DNA from: a virus
Virus record (IMG/VR): IMGVR_UViG_3300050821_018194
Coordinates: 1-21,328 of that record
Direction: 5' to 3' (one strand)
DNA: 21,328 bases
Under the pieces are notes generated by a model. It worked only from the letters and a program-made list of their open reading frames with translations, did not search any database and was not told the DNA's origin. Positions 5,118 through 19,902 of the stretch are shown here, in pieces. Position 1 is the first letter of the stretch; each line of letters opens with the position of its first letter. Position numbers and translations under genes: made by a program.

Positions 5118-5386
5118 GCAAATGGCAATTAGCAATTGGCAATTAGCCAAAGTAAACCAAAATCTCACCGGAGGCGCCCTTCGTTGGACTCGAGGGTAGG
5201 CTCTGACGCGGAGGAAAGCGAAGCAAAACTTTACCGCTGATGACGCTGATTTGAATGATCCTCGCTGATTCTTTGTGCTGGCTTCTGGCTCTTGCTTCTA
5301 GCTGAACGGCCAAGCGAAGGATCTCCGGGCCGCGCCCCTTCAGAGAAGAGGGGGCGTGATAGATTTGGTACTTTGTGAGTTTATCT
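5118..5386. repeat. Composite repeat gap (heptads, linker, hairpin, CTGAT element)
   Basis: No gene seen. In order it holds: agcaatt/ggcaatt heptads (about 5120-5147), the linker 'ccaaagtaaaccaaaatctc', a hairpin element gcccttcg...cgagggt (about 5176-5198) followed by 'aggctctgacgcggaggaaag', a 'tttaccgctgatgacgctga' element (about 5230-5250), then opposite-sense heptads (gctggct, tctggct, cttgctt, ctagctg; about 5278-5305). The same order of modules recurs at about 8165-8290 and 18590-18700, so this is a copy of a composite element. Confidence 0.7.
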
Positions 5387-6610
5387 ATGCCGAAATCCGC
5401 AGCCGCAACTGAAAAGATGTTGAAGACGGAGAAGCGTGTCCAGGGCATTGACGTGCTTCGCGGGCTTTGCATTGTTGCTGTGGCGCTGCATCACATGAAT
5501 CTTCGGATTCACTTTAATCAGAGCGCCCTGGGCAAATTCGTCGGCGCGGCTGCTAACCGGGTGTTGTTCTGGAGCGGGTACTACGGAGTCATTATATTTT
5601 TTGTGATTTCCGGCTTCCTGATCACCACGTGGTCACTCAAACGCTGGGGAGGCCTCAACAAGATCAGCCTCAGGCAGTTTTACTCCATGCGGTTTGCCCG
5701 GATCGTGCCTTGTCTGGTGGGTCTGCTGGTTGTGCTCAGCATTTTGGACCGTGCCGGGGTGCCCAGATTTGTCATCAACCCGCAGCACACCTCACTGGGG
5801 CGCGCGCTGTTGGCGGCGTTCACCTTTCATGTCAACTGGCTGGAGGCCCGTACCGGCTACCTGCCTGCATCCTGGGATGTGCTCTGGTCGCTTTCCGTGG
5901 AGGAAGTTTTTTACGTCTTCTTTCCGATGTTGTGCGTGGTGGTAAGAAAACAAGCGCTGCTGGTAACGTTGCTGGTCGCCTTTGTCGTGGTTGGACCATT
6001 GGCACGGACGGTCTTGACTCACAACCAGCTATGGGCGGATTACGGCTACCTCTCGTGCATGGACGGAATCGCGCTGGGCTGCCTGGCCGCGATCATCGCC
6101 AACAGGACCAGGTTTGGTGGCGTCAATTTGGGTGGCGTCAGTTTGGAAAACAAGGCGAATCTGTTGCTGCGGAGCCTCTTATTATTGGGCGCTGCGCTTT
6201 GTATCTTTATCGTAGTTTTTCGTGGAACGGTAGACAGCCTGGGACTCTACAAAACCGGCGTTGATGTGACGGTATTGGAGGCAGGAACGGCGCTGATGGT
6301 GATCGCCCTGCAACAGCGCTTCGAAAGAGATGCCGCGCCCGGCCGCTGGCCGACAGCCATTGTGCGCTGGTTTGGCCGCAACAGCTATGAGGTCTATCTC
6401 ACGCACATGTTCGTACTATGGCCGATAGTCTGGGCTTTCTCCCGGTTCCATCAGTCCATCAACGCGGCTCCAGTGTGGTTTGTCGCGGCAACAGGCCTGA
6501 GCGGAGTCTTCGGCTATGTTGTAGCGCGGTGGTACTCGGAGCCGGTTAATCGGGGATTGCGAGCAAGGCTGGCTGCTGGCCGATTGCCAAAATTGCCAAA
6601 ATTGCCATAA
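5387..6610 (+). CDS. Acyltransferase-3 family membrane protein
   Basis: The product is 407 residues from ATG 5387. ATG 5417 (MLKTEKRVQG) is an alternative, and neither has a strong ribosome-binding site. The acyltransferase-3 signatures are clear: R-G-x5-V-A-x-x-H-H in the first membrane helix (IDVLRGLCIVAVALHHMN), FFVISGFLITT, FYSMRFARIVPCL, the box WSLSVEEVFYVFFP, and a C-terminal RNSYEVYLTHMFVL helix. About ten membrane helices are expected, the usual topology of 350-400-residue members. These enzymes O-acylate surface polysaccharides, glycopeptides or similar substrates using acyl donors across the membrane. Lying between virion genes, it may be cargo that modifies the host receptor, as O-acetylases of lysogenic phages do (inference). 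Oddly, the last residues LPKLPKLP are encoded by the intergenic nonamer repeat. Confidence 0.85.
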   Translation: MPKSAAATEKMLKTEKRVQGIDVLRGLCIVAVALHHMNLRIHFNQSALGKFVGAAANRVLFWSGYYGVIIFFVISGFLITTWSLKRWGGLNKISLRQFYSMRFARIVPCLVGLLVVLSILDRAGVPRFVINPQHTSLGRALLAAFTFHVNWLEARTGYLPASWDVLWSLSVEEVFYVFFPMLCVVVRKQALLVTLLVAFVVVGPLARTVLTHNQLWADYGYLSCMDGIALGCLAAIIANRTRFGGVNLGGVSLENKANLLLRSLLLLGAALCIFIVVFRGTVDSLGLYKTGVDVTVLEAGTALMVIALQQRFERDAAPGRWPTAIVRWFGRNSYEVYLTHMFVLWPIVWAFSRFHQSINAAPVWFVAATGLSGVFGYVVARWYSEPVNRGLRARLAAGRLPKLPKLP

Positions 6611-6806
6611 TTGCCAAAAATTGGAACAAGAAGCCTCGTATTGATGCGAGCGGGAACAAGACTTCTTGCCGCCGATTTCGCAGGTGAGCGCGGTAAAGAC
6701 CCTCTGGCTAATTGCCAATTGCTATTTGCTAATTGCTGAAATGCCAAATGGCTGAATGCTGATTGCTAAATGCTGATTGCTAAATGCTGATTGCTGAGTG
6801 CTAACT
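6611..6806. repeat. Nonamer tail and heptad run before the Hint-protein gene
   Basis: The nonamer run ttgccaaaa/ttgccataa begins inside the preceding gene (about 6585) and ends near 6625. From about 6706 to 6806 the DNA is a heptad run (gctaatt, gccaatt, gctattt, then repeated tgctgat/tgctaaa units at 6755-6800). It abuts ATG 6807 through 'gctgagtgctaact', nearly identical to the leader of the gene at 631. Nothing else is recognisable in 6630-6700. Confidence 0.75.
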
Positions 6807-8126
6807 ATGCCTATTTCTATTCGCGGACAGAGTATCGATGCGGCCATGCGCAACCCTGAGGACATGCGGCGCCTGCTGGTTGGGGTGGCCCACAAGCTGG
6901 CTTTTTATGACGGACGGCTGGGGATCTCTGACGGGTTTCAAGACGATCCGGCGCGCGTTCCCCAGGCCAAGAGCGCTCCTCCTGCTGCTGCGTTGACTGT
7001 GACAGGAGTCGATGGCAAGTTTGAGATCCAGATCACGCTGCCGCAGGATGTCCAGCCGCAAACGGTCACGCTCTATCAGGCATCGTTTGGGGCGGACACG
7101 AACCGGGCGCGCGCGCCGATCCTGCACCAGCTTCAGTCGGCAACCGGCGTCCTGTTTGACGCCGCAAGCAAGGTGACTACCTACGGTCCCACGCCGGAGA
7201 CCAGCCTTTCGATCACCAATCCGAATGTGACGCTGTTCTGGCGGCTGCGCTCTTCTTACGATGGCGCGAACTGGAACGACTGGCAGATATTCACTTCAGC
7301 GGCGGTCTGCGGGCCGGCAGGAGTGAGTTCGGGGCTGATGCGGAGCGGCTCCATCAGCATTGCCAACACGGCCACCACGCCCAACGGCGCCAGCCCGCTC
7401 ACCCAGCAGGGAACATCAACGCAGATCAATGTGGCCGCTTCGTTGTGGAAGGCCGGGAATCAGACCATCAATTACAACTCCGGTTCAGTGAATCCGGGAA
7501 GCTATGGGAAATTCTACATATACACGGACGATCCGGCGCGGCTTGGGGGATCGGTGATCTTTGTCGCCACCAGCAACGTTTCCGACGTAACCGCCAGCGA
7601 CGCCAGAGTCTATTTCGGAGTCATCACCACGGCAGCCGGCGGAGGTGGAACAGGGAGCGGCGGAGGAGGAGGCTCATGCTGCATCGGGCGCGTGATGGTG
7701 GAGATGGCAGATGGCACGCAGCGCCGGCAAGATTCCCTGCGCAGAGGAGAAGCAGTTGCAGGACCGGACGGGCCTGACGAGATCGTCAGCATCGAACTGG
7801 TTCCCAACCAGCCTTGCTTCCGCCTGGAGCTGGACATTAAATTGAACCCCGAATTGGACACCGAATTGAAAACCGAATTGAACACCCGCGAGATCCACCA
7901 GGGATGCAGCGCCACTCATTCCCTCAAGCGCCACGCCGCAGGGTGGGAGACAGCTTTTGAAATTCAGGTGGGAGACGTTCTTGAAACACGGAAAGGGCCG
8001 GGCACAGTGAAAAAGAAAATCTTCATCGGCAACCATACGGTTTACAAAATGGTGCTGGCGCGCAACCGGGTCTTCATTGGTGACGGTCTTACCAATCACA
8101 ATGCGACGTATTTGAATATCAAGTGA
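6807..8126 (+). CDS. Virion-type protein with glycine linker and C-terminal Hint domain
   Basis: The product is 439 residues from ATG 6807. Residues 1-60 are helical. About 63-165 look like a fibronectin-III-type beta domain (LTVTGVDGKFEIQITLP ... FWRLRSSYDGANWNDW). About 175-275 form a second beta domain typical of phage tail proteins. A Gly/Ser linker (278-290) leads to Cys291-Cys292, a Hint-domain start (CIGRVMVEMADGT, then a block-A-type SLRRGEAVAGPDG). A block-B-like histidine is His371 in SATHSLKR, and the C-terminal block is VFIGDGLTNHN with His431-Asn432. Hint domains cleave or splice protein backbones using the first Cys and terminal His-Asn. The residue after Asn is Ala, not Cys/Ser/Thr, and only six more follow, so cleavage or crosslinking fits better than splicing (compare bacterial intein-like domains). 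The gene lies in the tail-gene block, probably as a fibre or tail accessory. Confidence 0.7.
   Translation: MPISIRGQSIDAAMRNPEDMRRLLVGVAHKLAFYDGRLGISDGFQDDPARVPQAKSAPPAAALTVTGVDGKFEIQITLPQDVQPQTVTLYQASFGADTNRARAPILHQLQSATGVLFDAASKVTTYGPTPETSLSITNPNVTLFWRLRSSYDGANWNDWQIFTSAAVCGPAGVSSGLMRSGSISIANTATTPNGASPLTQQGTSTQINVAASLWKAGNQTINYNSGSVNPGSYGKFYIYTDDPARLGGSVIFVATSNVSDVTASDARVYFGVITTAAGGGGTGSGGGGGSCCIGRVMVEMADGTQRRQDSLRRGEAVAGPDGPDEIVSIELVPNQPCFRLELDIKLNPELDTELKTELNTREIHQGCSATHSLKRHAAGWETAFEIQVGDVLETRKGPGTVKKKIFIGNHTVYKMVLARNRVFIGDGLTNHNATYLNIK
7840..7887 (+). repeat. 12-bp tandem repeat inside the Hint domain coding region
   Basis: There are four units of 12 bp: aattgaaccccg, aattggacaccg, aattgaaaaccg, aattgaacaccc. 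They encode Leu-x-(Pro/Thr)-Glu type tetrapeptides (LNPE, LDTE, LKTE, LNTR). The run lies in a loop of the Hint domain between the N-terminal block and the His371 block, a place where insertions are tolerated. Its length is likely to vary between strains. Confidence 0.8.
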
Positions 8127-11875: not shown

Positions 11876-14050
11876 CTAGCGCAATATGTGCAGGTCCTTC
11901 AGATGCTTCAGCGCTGACTCGTCTCTTACGTTTGTATACAGGAGGTAGAGTGTGGAGAGTTTCTTGAGATCCTTGAGGGGAGATACATCGCTCACCGTTG
12001 CACCGGTGAGGTTAAGAGTGGTGAGATTTGTAAGGCCTTTGAGGGGAGACAAATCGCCTACCTTTGTAGTGGTGAGGTTGAGCGTGGTGAGGTTTGTAAG
12101 GCCTTTGAGGGGAGACAAATCATTTACCTTTGTACCGGTGAGGTTGAGCGAGGTGAGATTCGTGAGGCCCGTGAGGGGAGACAAATCACTTACATCTGCG
12201 AGGGAGAGGTCAAGCTGAGAGAGATTCTTGAGATTCTTGATTGGTGACACATCATTTATCCCTGATCCGTTCAGGCTGAGGAACGTTACGCTCGTCAGGT
12301 TCTCCAGTGGGGACAGGTCAATGTATATGTACGTTTGAGAAAGCAACGCCGTAGCCTGGAAAACACCCAGTGTTGATACGTTCTTCAAAGAACCCCAACC
12401 CTTGAGGGTGGCGAGGGAGCCAGGGTTCATTAATCTCACTTTCAATGGCAGACGTGTGCGGCGGAGAGCGTTGAGGCTCGCGGCTGGTGGTGCTCCGTTG
12501 TATTCAAGTTCCAAAGTGGAATCAGCTTGGCGTACTTTCCAGCCGAGTTCTGTCAGTTCAACGATGGGGTCCTTTCCCCAGCTTGACGCGGCGATGAAGG
12601 CCACCACCATGCTGGTAGTTGCCAGCCAGGGTAGCCAGGTGCGGAATTTGCGCCAGAGGGATATTTTCCAGCGGGCTGTTATTGAGTCGAGTAAGGGGAC
12701 TAGGAAGTCGTGGGAGATTTCCCAGGTTTGCTGGTCGGAGTCTATTGGGCGGACTATGGCTCGGTCGCTTTGACCTAAGACTCTTAGGCAGCCTCGGACG
12801 GCGGCTGGGTCCAGCGTGGTGTCGCCGGTTGTGTTTTGGGCCAGTTCGGTTATTGTTCGGGGGCGCTTGGTTACGTAGCTGGTGATTAGCTGCGGGATCA
12901 GGTGGGGGGCCACGTCGCGGACTTGGGGGAGGGTTATGGACTCGCGCAAGAAGCCACGGATGAGGTTGCCTGGGCGAAAGCCTCGGGGGAGTCCGGTGGC
13001 GAAGCGTCCCAGGACGAGGCCGCAGAGGTTGACGGTTACGGGACGGACCAAGCCTTTGGCTTGTTCGATCTCGGCGGCTTCGCGGAGGACGTCGCGGAGG
13101 AGTTCGTCGCTGGCTTGCAGGCCGGAGCCGCGCATGAAATCGCGGGCGGCGCTTTCGGTAAAGGGTGGAACCTCTTTCCAATTGGTGTCCTGAAGCAGCG
13201 GGGGCAGCGAGAGCTTTTCGATCAGACCGATATAGTCGCTGCGAAAGACCAACAGGAATGTGACTTCGCCGATGGACTGGTGGCGCAGGGAGGACAAGAG
13301 CTGTCCAAGGCGCTGCTGGCGCTCGGCGTCCTGCAAGATTACAAACTCTTCAAACTGGTCGAGGACGATTAGAAGGCGTCGAGGATGGATGTAACGACAG
13401 GCGCGTTCGAGCAGGGAGCGCAGGTCGGTTCGTTTGTCTGACGAGCTCTTATCCGAAGGTCTCGCCCAGATGACGCCCGGTCTCTGCAACTCCTGTTCGA
13501 GGACAGTGAGCGGGTCCTGGTAGCCGCGCAGGCGGATGACAAGGGTATTCTGGCGCTCCAGATTGGGCAGGACCCAGGCGGTGAGCAGGGAGCTTTTTCC
13601 CGATCCGGACAAGCCAGTGAGGTAGAGTACCGGGCTTTTGTTGTCTTGGAGCCAGCGAAGGATTTCCAGATGTTTGGCATCGGCGCGGGCGAATGAGGCC
13701 TCGTCGTCGAGAGGGGCGAGACGGAAGTATCCGGCTTGAAGATGGCCGGTGATCTCGGTGAGGCGCTTTTTTCTTCTCTGTTCGATCAATGATGGGATTA
13801 CGTGGAAGACGAGGGCCAATATCGGCAAGGCAGCAACCAACCCTGCGCGTAACCCGACAGGCAGGTCTTTCAAGGGTTCAGCAAGCTTCTGAAAGGCAAG
13901 CACTGCGGCTGTGATCGCACCTGCATAAGCTGTCAGGAGGCCAACCCAAGAAGTGGCAAGTTTGGCTACGAGTTCAAAGGCTCGGCCCAGACCCTTTGAG
14001 GCAGAGTCCAAATTGGGACTGGAAACAGGGGTGAGTGTTGGGCTGGCCAT
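11876..14050 (-). CDS. Membrane STAND-type NTPase with C-terminal leucine-rich repeats
   Basis: The product is 724 residues from ATG 14050 (MASPTLTPVS). The longer frame to 14239 would run through repeat DNA and over the divergent gene. Two membrane helices lie at about 34-52 and 66-86. The NTPase core has Walker A GLSGSGKS (146-153) and Walker B RRLLIVLDQFEE (224-235), the form typical of bacterial STAND ATPases, then FRSDYIG and a winged-helix-type EISHDFLVPLL (444-454). A third membrane helix is at about 472-490. Residues about 575-720 are 22-residue leucine-rich repeats (LTNLTTLNLTxTKVxDLSPL) of internalin type. STAND proteins are signal-triggered switches, and several are anti-phage defences that oligomerise after sensing a phage protein with their C-terminal repeats. 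Here the LRR would be the sensor (inference). No effector enzyme domain is visible; the membrane segments may be the effector. It is divergent from a zinc-ribbon gene 187 bp away. Confidence 0.85.
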   Translation of the reverse strand: MASPTLTPVSSPNLDSASKGLGRAFELVAKLATSWVGLLTAYAGAITAAVLAFQKLAEPLKDLPVGLRAGLVAALPILALVFHVIPSLIEQRRKKRLTEITGHLQAGYFRLAPLDDEASFARADAKHLEILRWLQDNKSPVLYLTGLSGSGKSSLLTAWVLPNLERQNTLVIRLRGYQDPLTVLEQELQRPGVIWARPSDKSSSDKRTDLRSLLERACRYIHPRRLLIVLDQFEEFVILQDAERQQRLGQLLSSLRHQSIGEVTFLLVFRSDYIGLIEKLSLPPLLQDTNWKEVPPFTESAARDFMRGSGLQASDELLRDVLREAAEIEQAKGLVRPVTVNLCGLVLGRFATGLPRGFRPGNLIRGFLRESITLPQVRDVAPHLIPQLITSYVTKRPRTITELAQNTTGDTTLDPAAVRGCLRVLGQSDRAIVRPIDSDQQTWEISHDFLVPLLDSITARWKISLWRKFRTWLPWLATTSMVVAFIAASSWGKDPIVELTELGWKVRQADSTLELEYNGAPPAASLNALRRTRLPLKVRLMNPGSLATLKGWGSLKNVSTLGVFQATALLSQTYIYIDLSPLENLTSVTFLSLNGSGINDVSPIKNLKNLSQLDLSLADVSDLSPLTGLTNLTSLNLTGTKVNDLSPLKGLTNLTTLNLTTTKVGDLSPLKGLTNLTTLNLTGATVSDVSPLKDLKKLSTLYLLYTNVRDESALKHLKDLHILR
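11965..12228 (-). repeat. 66-bp tandem repeats coding for LRR units
   Basis: Four units of exactly 66 bp (22 codons) are marked on the + strand by 'gaggggaga' at 11975, 12041, 12107 and 12173. Adjacent units around 12031-12160 are nearly identical over long stretches (taaggcctttgaggggag at 12031 and 12097). Farther units, beyond 12230, are diverged. This gradient indicates recent expansion of the sensor repeat array within the gene. Confidence 0.9.
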
Positions 14051-14237
14051 GGTGCGTAGTTTAACCCTGGCAGCTATAAAATCAAAAACCTCGCGCTGAT
14101 TGCGCTGATCAACGCCGACTCTTCGTTGCTGGCCGCATCTTCCATCAGCATGAATGGGAGAGTCAGTGTACAATCTTTTGCAGTTTTCAATTTCAAAACG
14201 GAAATTCCGGTTAAAACCATTGTTTGGAGGACTTTCC
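14051..14237. promoter_or_regulatory. Divergent intergenic region between NTPase and zinc-ribbon genes
   Basis: This 187-bp space must hold the promoters of both divergent genes. It contains a diverged 'gcgctgattgcgctgatcaa' element (about 14092-14111) and an AT-rich stretch next to the + gene. A TACAAT hexamer (14168-14173) could be a -10 box, but no -35 box at good spacing is evident. The NTPase start has no Shine-Dalgarno site, while the + gene has ggagg at 14226-14230. No clear operator palindrome was found. Confidence 0.35.
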
Positions 14238-14918
14238 ATGTACTGCCGCTTCTGTGGTGCTACCCTTCCTGACGACTCAACCTTCTGTCAAAAGTGTGGT
14301 AAGTCACTGGCCGCAACGGCAGCGCCATCAAGCAAAGACGCAAGTGCTGCCGCGCCAGCAATGGCACCGATTCCAAAGTCAGTGCCGCAACCGGCGGGGA
14401 AAGCAAGCCAGAACGCGATCTTAGCGGGTATGGTGCTACTTATAGTTGTGTTTGGTGGTATCTGGTGGATAGCGAACAATCGAGGCACTTCAAGTGCTTC
14501 GGACGGTGCTAGTACTTCACCTGGTTTTCATCAGCAGACGTCCCCTGTACCTACTCCTCAGCTTCATCGCGTAAGAATCGGCACGGGCGCGCTAACTGTC
14601 AATGCGTCTAGTTCTGCGTATTTCACTTTGGCGGTACCTGCGGGAGCTAACAATGTCAGATTGCAAGGGCGTTTCAGCGCTACTGGTGGCAGTGGAAACG
14701 ACGTTAAGGTCTATCTGCTCAGCGAGGATCAGTACACGAATTGGCAAAATGGCCATTCAACACCCACGTTTTACAACAGCGATAAAGTCACGGTGAGTGA
14801 TGTGAATGTCACCCTGCCCAACGACGCTGGCACGTACTACCTAGTATTCGACAATAGGTTCTCTTTGTTTTCGCCGAAGGCCGTGGAAGAGCAGTTAACC
14901 CTGACCTACTACCAATGA
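14238..14918 (+). CDS. Zinc-ribbon, single-TM protein with C-terminal beta domain
   Basis: ATG 14238 follows ggagg. The 226 residues comprise a zinc ribbon at the extreme N-terminus (Cys3, Cys6, Cys17, Cys20: YCRFCG ... FCQKCG), a Ala/Ser/Pro linker, one membrane helix (about 60-79, ILAGMVLLIVVFGGIWWIA), a Ser/Thr/Pro-rich spacer, and a beta-sandwich-like domain (about 112-226) with VKVYLLSEDQYTNW, YNSDKVTVSDVNVTLP and GTYYLVFDNRFS. That last pattern resembles GOLD-type beta domains, so the topology would be a cytoplasmic zinc ribbon and an extracytoplasmic beta domain. Zinc-ribbon/TM proteins with variable outer domains are common in Acidobacteriota and often unannotated. The divergent NTPase makes a functional pair possible (inference); it could equally be an unrelated host gene. 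Confidence 0.75.
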   Translation: MYCRFCGATLPDDSTFCQKCGKSLAATAAPSSKDASAAAPAMAPIPKSVPQPAGKASQNAILAGMVLLIVVFGGIWWIANNRGTSSASDGASTSPGFHQQTSPVPTPQLHRVRIGTGALTVNASSSAYFTLAVPAGANNVRLQGRFSATGGSGNDVKVYLLSEDQYTNWQNGHSTPTFYNSDKVTVSDVNVTLPNDAGTYYLVFDNRFSLFSPKAVEEQLTLTYYQ

Positions 14919-17360: not shown

Positions 17361-17371
17361 TCTTTTTAGAG

Positions 17372-17400
17372 AGCCCGCTTTTTGCGGGCTTTTTTATTTT
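17372..17400 (+). terminator. Strong intrinsic terminator just before the terminase gene
   Basis: A perfect stem agcccgc (17372-17378) and gcgggct (17384-17390), with a ttttt loop, is followed by tttttatttt. This is the clearest rho-independent terminator in the window. It would end transcription of the 127-aa gene and repeats, but it stands only 20 bp before ATG 17421, leaving no room for a promoter in between. Confidence 0.9.
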
Positions 17401-17420: not shown

Positions 17421-18557
17421 ATGGGTGTCAAGACCTTTAAGAAATATAGCGACGAATACAAACTGGCTTTGGTGCGGGAGATTGAGGGTGGGAAGACTGT
17501 GCCTGAAGTTGAACGGGCCAGCGGTGTTACGCGGAGCACGCTTTACCGGTGGGTAGAGGAGCTTTCTCCTCGGACGCTGGGGGTTGGGGAGGTCAAGGTA
17601 GCAGAAGAAGACGCGGGAGCGGTGGAAGGGGTTGGGCTCGGGATTCGTCCCAGGAAGACGTTTAGTGAGGAGTTCAAAATTGCGGCGGTGCGCGAGGTGG
17701 AAGGAGGCAGGAAGGTGCCGGAGCTGGCCGAGGAGCTTGAGGTGGACAAGGCAGCGCTTTACCGGTGGTGTAAGGAGTTTGCCAGTACGAAACAACGCTC
17801 CAGTGATGACGCCTCTGGCGAGCGCGATAGTTCACCGGAGCCCGCCCAGGTGGAGAGCATAGAAGACGTCCAGGCAAGACTGCGAGTGGAGAGAGAAGCT
17901 AAGGAGCTTGAGACACAAGAGCAAGCCCGAGCCCTGCAGGACGAAAAAGCGCGGGTCCAGACGATGATTGCCGACCCATTGATTTGGCTACAACAGCATA
18001 CGCAGACCAAGGATTCGCATTGGCGGGAGGCGGGGGCCAGCAGCGCGTACCGTCCCTTTCCGGAGAAGCCTTATTTTCGTCCTATTGTGGAGACGTTTCA
18101 GGCTGAGCCGGTTTTGTTTATCGAAAAATCGCGGGACATGATGCTTTCGTGGTTGTGCGTTGGGTTGTTTACCCATGCGGCGATGACGATTGAGGGAATT
18201 GAGGTCCTGTTTCAATCCCAGAATGAAGACAAAGCGTTTGAGTTAGTCCAATACGCGAAGACGCTTTATTCGAGGCAGAAGCCGGAGATACAAAGAGCAT
18301 TTCCACTGGCGCGGAGTATGCGGTATATGGCGGATGGCGAACTGGTCTTTGCGCATGGCAGCCGGATCATTGGAATTCCCGGGGGTGGCGATCAGATTCG
18401 GTCTTACCATCCGTGGGGGTTGTTTCAGGATGAGGCTGCGTTCATGCCGGAAGCCGGGGAGGCTTACGACAACGCTGTCCCGGTATGCCAGAAGATTGTG
18501 GTGCTCAGTTCGGCGGGGCCGGGGTGGTTTGCGGATGTGTGTGGCTCTGGGGTCTAG
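17421..18557 (+). CDS. Terminase large-subunit ATPase half with two N-terminal HTH domains
   Basis: The product is 378 residues from ATG 17421; an upstream in-frame start would read through the terminator. Residues 7-47 and 79-120 are two similar helix-turn-helix domains of the transposase orfA type (KKYSDEYKLALVREIEGGKT ... STLYRWVEEL; KTFSEEFKIAAVREVEGGRK ... AALYRWCKEF), so an internal duplication. A charged coiled-coil-like linker spans about 140-182. Residues 185-372 are a packaging ATPase core: a Walker-A-like IEKSRDMMLSW (234-244), Walker B GLFQDEAAF (333-341) and a coupling motif LSSAGPGWF (362-370). It ends GSGV-stop, right where a nuclease domain should begin. HTH domains are what small terminase subunits use to bind the packaging site, so this may be a TerS-TerL ATPase fusion (inference). 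It acts with the nuclease encoded at 18865. Confidence 0.8.
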   Translation: MGVKTFKKYSDEYKLALVREIEGGKTVPEVERASGVTRSTLYRWVEELSPRTLGVGEVKVAEEDAGAVEGVGLGIRPRKTFSEEFKIAAVREVEGGRKVPELAEELEVDKAALYRWCKEFASTKQRSSDDASGERDSSPEPAQVESIEDVQARLRVEREAKELETQEQARALQDEKARVQTMIADPLIWLQQHTQTKDSHWREAGASSAYRPFPEKPYFRPIVETFQAEPVLFIEKSRDMMLSWLCVGLFTHAAMTIEGIEVLFQSQNEDKAFELVQYAKTLYSRQKPEIQRAFPLARSMRYMADGELVFAHGSRIIGIPGGGDQIRSYHPWGLFQDEAAFMPEAGEAYDNAVPVCQKIVVLSSAGPGWFADVCGSGV

Positions 18558-18864
18558 AAGCAGTCAGCAGTCAGCACTCAGCATTCAGCATTCAGCCAAA
18601 GCAATTAGCAAATAGCAATTGGCAATTAGCCAAACAAAACCTTTTTCACCGCCCTTCGCTACGCTCAAGGGCAGGCTCCGGACGCAAAGGACGCAGAGGG
18701 AGGAGCGCCGAGGCAGGGGAAACTCTTCGGCTTTGCTCAGGGTGGACTCCGGACGCAGAGGAAAAACGGAGAGGCAAAAGGAATGCGGAACGCTTAAGAG
18801 CGCAGAGGCAGAGAGCTGCAGAGATAGACGACGTAAAAGACGGGATTGTAGAGGGAATTCATTT
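18558..18864. repeat. 307-bp mosaic repeat separating the two terminase halves
   Basis: In order: heptads cagtcag/cagcact/cagcatt (about 18560-18596), agcaatt-type heptads to about 18631, the linker 'ccaaacaaaacctttttcac', a hairpin module gcccttcgctacgctcaagggc (about 18652-18674), 'aggctccggacgcaaagg', a second hairpin-type piece cttcggctttgctcagggt (about 18723-18741), and 'cagaggcagagagctgcag' stretches. It ends in gaggga (18851-18856), the ribosome-binding site for the nuclease gene. No intron or intein signature is recognisable. The frames on the two sides differ. Confidence 0.85.
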
Positions 18865-19902
18865 ATGCGGGAAGTTGTTCATGGACTTATTGAGAAGCGG
18901 GCGCCGCAGGGGATTGTTTTGCGGGTGCATTACCGGGCTGATCCTGATCGGGACCCGGCGATTAATCCTAGATGGAGAGAGCAAGAGCGCAAGAAGTACA
19001 GTTCGCAGGGGGCGTGGGACCGCGAGCAGGAGGTTATCCACGAGGCTGGCGGCGGGGAGCGGGTGTTTGCCGAGGTGTTCAGCCGGTGGACGGACAAGAT
19101 CATTGTTGACGGTTCGCGGTTTCAGCCTTCTCCACACTGGAGGCGTATTGGCGGGTTCGATCATGGCAAGGCCAATCCTACGGCGGCCCTGGTGGGCTGC
19201 GTGGATTTTGATGGCGTGGTTTACCTGACAGCGGAGTATTACCAGCCGGGGTTTAGTCCTAAACAGCATCGTCCGAACCTTGTCGAGTTACAGGGCTTTT
19301 TGGAGGCCGAGGTTTTGGCCGACCCTTCGATCTTTTACAAGACTCAGGCGCAGGGCGATGGATCGTTTAAGGCGATTGCCGACCTTTATGCAGAAGAGGG
19401 AATTACCAACCTGCTGCCGGCCCCTCAGAACAATGAACTGCTGGGCATGGAGAGGATTCTGTCGCATTGGCTTGACCTGGAGGGCCGAGAGCCGACGTTG
19501 AAGATTGTTTGTCCTTCGCACTTGAGGGACATCCAGAGGCCTATTTATGGGGTACACAATAACGGCTGTCCTAATCTCTTGTGGGAGCTGCGGCGGGCGC
19601 GGCGGGAAGAGTTGTCGGCGGGACAGCTTGTCCACCGGAACCCTACGGAGCGGATTGTAGATAAAGACAACCATCTGCGCGATGCACTCAAGTACATGGT
19701 GCTTTCGTTGCCGGAGCCGACGAAGAAGACTGCGTTGTGCCGGGCACAGGAAGCGGTGGTGGGGTTGGACCCTTCGAGCGCTTTGATCTGGTGGGATGAT
19801 GTGATGTGGGATTACAAGTTCAAAGAGGAAAAGCGGATTTTGCTGGGGCGGACAGGGGTTATGCGGGAGTTACTGAGGAGAAAACGTCATTCTTACCGCT
19901 GA
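18865..19902 (+). CDS. Terminase large-subunit nuclease half
   Basis: The product is 345 residues from ATG 18865, with gaggga 8 bases upstream. Residues 1-75 look like the inter-domain segment of large terminases (LRVHYRADPDRDP ... WREQERKKYSSQGAWDREQEVI). An RNase H-like nuclease follows with GGFDHGKANPTAAL (Asp99), ADPSIF (Asp153) and the terminal acid pair KDNHLRDALKYMVL (Asp267 and Asp273), the usual metal-binding Asp set. It cuts the DNA concatemer at the packaging motor. The matching ATPase half lies 307 bp upstream in another frame, so the two must work as separate chains if active. The last residues HSYR and the stop TGA come from a repeat 'cttaccgctgatttgcgcgg'. Confidence 0.8.
   Translation: MREVVHGLIEKRAPQGIVLRVHYRADPDRDPAINPRWREQERKKYSSQGAWDREQEVIHEAGGGERVFAEVFSRWTDKIIVDGSRFQPSPHWRRIGGFDHGKANPTAALVGCVDFDGVVYLTAEYYQPGFSPKQHRPNLVELQGFLEAEVLADPSIFYKTQAQGDGSFKAIADLYAEEGITNLLPAPQNNELLGMERILSHWLDLEGREPTLKIVCPSHLRDIQRPIYGVHNNGCPNLLWELRRARREELSAGQLVHRNPTERIVDKDNHLRDALKYMVLSLPEPTKKTALCRAQEAVVGLDPSSALIWWDDVMWDYKFKEEKRILLGRTGVMRELLRRKRHSYR

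Follow-up and report, generated by a model that had tools for sequence, protein, structure and literature searches.

A probable two-chain large terminase divided between ATPase core and lid in phages of Acidobacteriota

Introduction

Current models of DNA packaging stress a covalent chain of ATPase, lid, and nuclease, with a hinge that moves the DNA. The lid, or linker, is a three-helix bundle that coordinates the ATPase and the nuclease (reviewed in PMC7617512). The coding sequence of the large terminase (terL) is known to be interrupted by introns, inteins, and VSR/HNH endonuclease genes, as in Bastillevirinae (PMC11878797), Enterococcus phage iF6 (PMC10054541), and Campylobacter phage IBB_35 (PMC3322345). 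In these published cases, the intervening sequences occur in single phages, and several are spliced out, or a short fragment is left. In the open-access literature that we searched, no paper describes a lineage whose TerL is stably split between core and lid. Here, we analyse a soil phage locus, and its relatives, in which the two halves of the large terminase lie in separate genes.

Results

Two genes with the motifs of a large terminase

The window, i.e., the whole stretch of DNA that was analysed, is a linear fragment of 21,328 bp (IMG/VR virus record IMGVR_UViG_3300050821_018194). The first-pass annotation of this sequence had described an ATPase gene (A) followed, 307 bp further on and in a different reading frame, by a nuclease gene (B) with its own ATG and ribosome-binding site (RBS), an arrangement that the coordinates confirm:

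17368..17394, plus strand: terminator-like hairpin directly upstream of gene A, with an 11-bp stem and a T run (consensus scan only)
17421..18557, plus strand: gene A, two helix-turn-helix (HTH) modules and terminase ATPase core (ATG at 17421, 378 aa)
17421..17600, plus strand: first HTH module, residues 1–60, transposase/terminase-small-subunit-like (Pfam/PHROG)
17652..17846, plus strand: second HTH module, residues 78–142, HTH_Tnp_1 (Pfam/PHROG)
18126..18143, plus strand: deviant Walker A, KSRDMM (residue 236), without lysine at the usual P-loop place and with an invariant Lys upstream
18423..18443, plus strand: Walker B and catalytic Glu, FQDEAAF (residue 335; profile/fused-homologue alignment)
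18498..18515, plus strand: coupling motif, VVLSSA (residue 360; profile/fused-homologue alignment)
18558..18864, no strand: intergenic gap of 307 bp with heptad, hairpin, and 'cagagg' repeats that also occur dispersed in genomes of the host lineage
18850..18855, plus strand: RBS-like AGAGGG, 9 nt 5' of the start of gene B (by eye)
18865..19902, plus strand: gene B, beta hairpin, three-helix lid/linker, and RNase H-fold nuclease (ATG at 18865, 345 aa)
18865..19140, plus strand: lid/linker part, gene B residues 1–92, with predicted strands at 8–21 and helices at 35–42, 48–54, and 69–79
19153..19167, plus strand: nuclease motif GFDHG (residue 97) with invariant Asp 99 (alignment)
19321..19323, plus strand: invariant nuclease Asp 153, in ADPSIF (residue 152; alignment)
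19681..19683, plus strand: invariant nuclease Asp 273, in NHLRD (residue 269; alignment)

The annotation had gene A ending six residues after LSSAGPGWF (residues 362–370 of 378); the position is correct, and the number of residues after the motif is eight. Its statement that both halves retain their motifs holds for KSRDMM, FQDEAAF, and VVLSSA in chain A and for GFDHG, ADPSIF, and NHLRD in chain B.

The HTH region of chain A matches Pfam HTH_Tnp_1 (E 4e-22), and its matches to TerS PHROGs are weak. The first module is also found in the nearest relative (L119) and in a fused homologue (L178), both of which have weak matches to Sf6_terminase and Terminase_5; Pfam names the HTH modules as transposase-type. 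In the ATPase core, the Walker A region follows the pattern KSRDMM[ALVI][ST]W, and all 92 aligned relatives (92/92) have the Lys that is placed two residues ahead of the Arg. The canonical lysine (GK[ST]) is absent, the aligned position being mostly A, L, V, or I. Deviant Walker A motifs are known from other TerLs, and the missing lysine is therefore compatible with membership of this family. The Walker B Asp-Glu pair is invariant among aligned relatives and, together with the coupling motif, provides what defines an ASCE ATPase core. A profile of chain A from 24 relatives, compared with PDB sequences, matches the core of T4 gp17 (residues 95–298, E 9e-6), and the alignment pairs the Walker A, the Walker B (DE), and the S/T-rich coupling motif. 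Chain A matches PHROG terL families in most members. With hhalign against single fused TerLs, chain A gave uninformative results and chain B was matched.

Chain B has the three acidic residues of RNase H/RuvC-type nucleases: D99, D153, and D273 are invariant in 50 aligned rows. It matches terL PHROGs, and its structural model (pLDDT 88) matches the TerL of phage D6E (E 4e-8) and the P22 terminase nuclease (E 7e-7). In one relative (L032), gene B is followed by a head-tail adaptor/portal-type gene.

No portal or capsid genes were recognised in the 21-kb window. The window copy may lie within a decaying provirus because the fragment is linear, lacks these recognised genes, and contains many host-type repeats. 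Elsewhere in the window, the gene at 6798–8126 encodes a virion-type protein whose C-terminal part looks Hint (Hedgehog/intein)-like by eye (SCCIGRVMVEMADG ... CSATHSL ... GDGLTNHN), with no match in Pfam. The minus strand at 11876–14239 encodes a 787-aa nSTAND1/NACHT-type NTPase with leucine-rich repeats, a possible defence gene without a clear PADLOC match, and 5375–6610 encodes an Acyl_transf_3 acyltransferase, possibly a surface-modification gene of a provirus.

The cut falls between ATPase core and lid

The fused homologue L178, from a Candidatus Angelobacter metagenome-assembled genome (MAG), aligns with chain A as far as residue 376 and with chain B from residue 7 onwards. By this alignment, the gap of the window replaces only a linker of ~10 residues, and neither half has lost conserved sequence. 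In the model of L178 (pLDDT 86), whose best structural match is T4 gp17 (E 2e-16), the cut maps to a loop that joins the helix at 387–393 to the strand at 400–403; the aligned position in T4 gp17 is shortly after residue 298. Since chain A ends ~15 residues past the coupling motif, the lid helices are on chain B, whose start is predicted to form two strands and three helices ahead of the nuclease. Alignments and models thus place the cut upstream of the ATPase–nuclease hinge, with the ATPase core on one side and the lid and nuclease on the other. The earlier description of a split between ATPase and nuclease was right about the two halves, but these are not complete domains, the border being that of core and lid.

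Most relatives have the two halves in separate genes

Together with the window, the scan of viral and genome contigs yielded 97 distinct loci that have both halves. Among the 96 relatives, the halves are in separate genes in 91 and fused in 5, the latter being scattered in the tree. This is at odds with a fused gene in all relatives, which the first-pass annotation had named as grounds for giving up its reading, and the "very recent break" that it had suggested is contradicted by the same split in L119 and 90 other distinct relatives. L119, which is 66–68% identical, has its own repeat-filled gap of 157 bp.

The halves are adjacent in 58 of the split relatives and separated by 0.16–4.9 kb in 33; with the window, 34 split loci have 157–4893 bp between the halves. 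These distances are those between alignment ends, and one member of the group (L179), which has a stop-start overlap, was assigned to it only as a result of masked bases, which displace its alignment. Gene B starts at −23 to +30 nt from the stop of gene A in 56 of 57 adjacent pairs (29 overlapping, 27 more at ≤30 nt, 1 farther), and adjacent pairs are thus placed like translationally coupled genes.

Some of the intervals contain complete genes. A free-standing HNH gene lies exactly between the halves of one relative (L021:8692–9225, Pfam HNH E 2e-14), and at the same location another (L145) has a different, unrelated gene. By eye, further genes between the halves are ribonucleotide-reductase-like (L035:9443–11338), cytidylyltransferase-like, or encode a methyltransferase.

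Many relatives are on contigs of about 67–71 kb, and the recurrence of this size suggests that these genomes may be nearly complete. The hosts of MAG-borne relatives are Acidobacteriota, except for one contig binned as Thaumarchaeota; the split terminase on that contig (L187) could result from misbinning or point to a wider range of hosts. The fused double-HTH L178 comes from the MAG assembly Candidatus Angelobacter Gp1-AA117, in which a second contig has an A half that lacks a B half (L177, 73% identical). No close relatives were found in culture, only distant TerLs, which are single full-length genes in those inspected.

The gap is filled with repeats of the host lineage

The gap has internal repeats and, as had been noted from the sequence, is built from heptad, hairpin, and 'cagagg' modules seen between other genes. 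These modules recur at 14 other places of the window (E 4e-18 to 1e-3), nearly all of them intergenic, and at no fewer than 43 places in one Acidobacteriota MAG carrying relatives. They are therefore host-lineage repeats and no special element of the terminase. The accompanying idea that a repeat mosaic split the gene was not borne out: most split relatives are free of inserts, so the repeats entered a pre-existing gene junction, as HNH and other cargo did elsewhere. That the intergenic repeats of the window are common to Acidobacteriota MAGs suggests a long residence as a provirus.

Evolution of the split

We rooted the tree on fused T4-like TerLs. It pairs the window with L119 (100/95) and places the fused L178 as their sister (96/85). 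The distribution of the fused state requires five changes, i.e., the locus would have switched between split and fused about five times. On this tree, one fission followed by four re-fusions would cost as much as five fissions. Linker residues common to L178 and L123 would favour repeated fission, and the common start position of B in the clades of the window and L016 would favour re-fusion. Given the five fused relatives, a single chain also works in this family.

Other parts of the packaging module vary as well. In the window, L119, and L178, a double HTH is joined to the ATPase. In one relative (L123), a fused TerL follows a separate gene for TerS (phrog_51, E 2e-11); in another (L069), a single ORF combines, by eye, an HTH-like segment with the ATPase and the nuclease.

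The first-pass annotation had proposed to check selection and co-occurrence, and both checks speak for its two-chain reading. Comparison of the window with L119 gives a pN/pS of 0.26 (A) and 0.34 (B) at nearly saturated synonymous sites, and the close pairs L076–L078, L076–L079, and L121–L122 give 0.03–0.22. By these ratios, purifying selection acts on both halves along most of the tree; with dS so close to saturation, they would not reveal a very recent loss of selection. The distance matrices of A and B are correlated in the insert group (r 0.83) and in the adjacent group (r 0.89), and no permutation reached values as high. The halves thus co-diverge; because the correlation partly reflects shared ancestry, it is a sign of co-inheritance and not of contact.

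Discussion

Alternative explanations

We regard it as likely that Acidobacteriota phages have a working large terminase of two chains, one of the readings offered by the first-pass annotation: the split occurs widely, goes deep in the tree, and is inherited jointly by two halves that purifying selection maintains. Its presence in 91 of 96 distinct relatives marks it as a long-lived arrangement rather than damage to a gene. A pseudogene, namely a fused terminase of a decaying provirus broken in the window lineage by insertion of host repeats, is an unlikely alternative. The gap is filled with such repeats, the sister of the window and L119 is the fused L178, and the MAG assembly of L178 includes the A-only remnant L177. 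Yet the two reading frames are intact, gene B has its start and RBS at the conserved N-terminus, L119 is split likewise with pN/pS still at 0.26–0.34, and most of the family has the split genes next to each other and free of inserts.

That the two genes still yield a single protein, whether through RNA splicing, translational bypassing, or a frameshift over the gap, is very improbable. Self-splicing introns are known to split terminase genes (PMC11878797), but Rfam found no group I or group II intron in the window or six relatives, and gene B carries a start and an RBS of its own. The halves overlap in some members and are up to 4.9 kb apart in others, what lies between them is unrelated and includes complete genes, and the frame of B is closed before the stop of A in 14 of the 58 adjacent members. 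Among specific candidates, we rejected a frameshift fusion, impossible in these 14 members and in those with kilobase inserts; an intein, as a stop codon ends A and the gap has no long ORF in its frame; and an intron, given the Rfam search. Repeats favour misassembly, and the annotation had pointed to a possible assembly error at 18550–18870. An assembly or binning artefact there is hardly credible: L119, L121, L122, and L016 have the same two-gene architecture, as do dozens of independent contigs whose samples are unrelated.

A model for the two-chain terminase

In the two-chain terminase that we favour, chain A has the N-terminal pair of DNA-binding HTH modules and the ATPase core. Chain B takes over with the final beta hairpin, which is followed by the lid/linker and a nuclease of RNase H type. 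The two are probably an obligate heterodimer. They would be co-translated from one mRNA and assemble as a heterodimeric motor subunit, in which the hairpin and lid of B pack on the ATPase sheet of A. ATP would drive the movement of lid and nuclease across a non-covalent interface, and chain B would cut the DNA. In the window, the old gene junction was later filled by dispersed repeats of host type, and in relatives by HNH or other cargo genes; such insert-bearing members, including the window, would have lost the coupling by overlap and depend on the own RBS of gene B.

We lean, with less assurance, towards a broader scenario: a lineage of Acidobacteriota phages with an obligate two-chain terminase cut between core and lid, which transmits force via a non-covalent interface, freely shuffles its packaging modules (HTH-ATPase plus nuclease, ATPase plus nuclease, HTH-ATPase-nuclease, ATPase-nuclease), and has toggled several times between fused and split states. 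If true, core and lid/nuclease could each be purified, titrated, and swapped, and the motor would show whether the covalent linkage serves translocation or only stoichiometry. Detection of viruses and trees based on terL may miss phages with split terminases or count only half of the protein.

Comparison with known systems

The locus shares with T4 gp17-type TerLs the ATPase core (Walker B and coupling motif), the lid/linker, and the RNase H-type nuclease, in the same order. It differs from them in its two genes, in a Walker A without the usual lysine, and, in the clade of the window, in the HTH modules on the ATPase chain. TerL is defined as one polypeptide, whereas the window and 91 of its 96 relatives have two genes. 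The predicted fold of chain B is that of the large terminase of phage D6E and of the P22 nuclease domain, in which the nuclease is covalently joined to the ATPase, whereas here it is a separate chain. Two short "terminase large subunit" families, phrog_7579 (239 positions) and phrog_5653 (199 positions), each match a single half, the ATPase or the nuclease, and their lengths hint that TerL genes of half size are already represented in databases. As in the published interrupted terL genes, the coding sequence is broken, and some relatives have an endonuclease gene in the junction (L021). In contrast to those cases, the split is clade-wide, lies at one domain border, and is mostly insert-free and intron-free.
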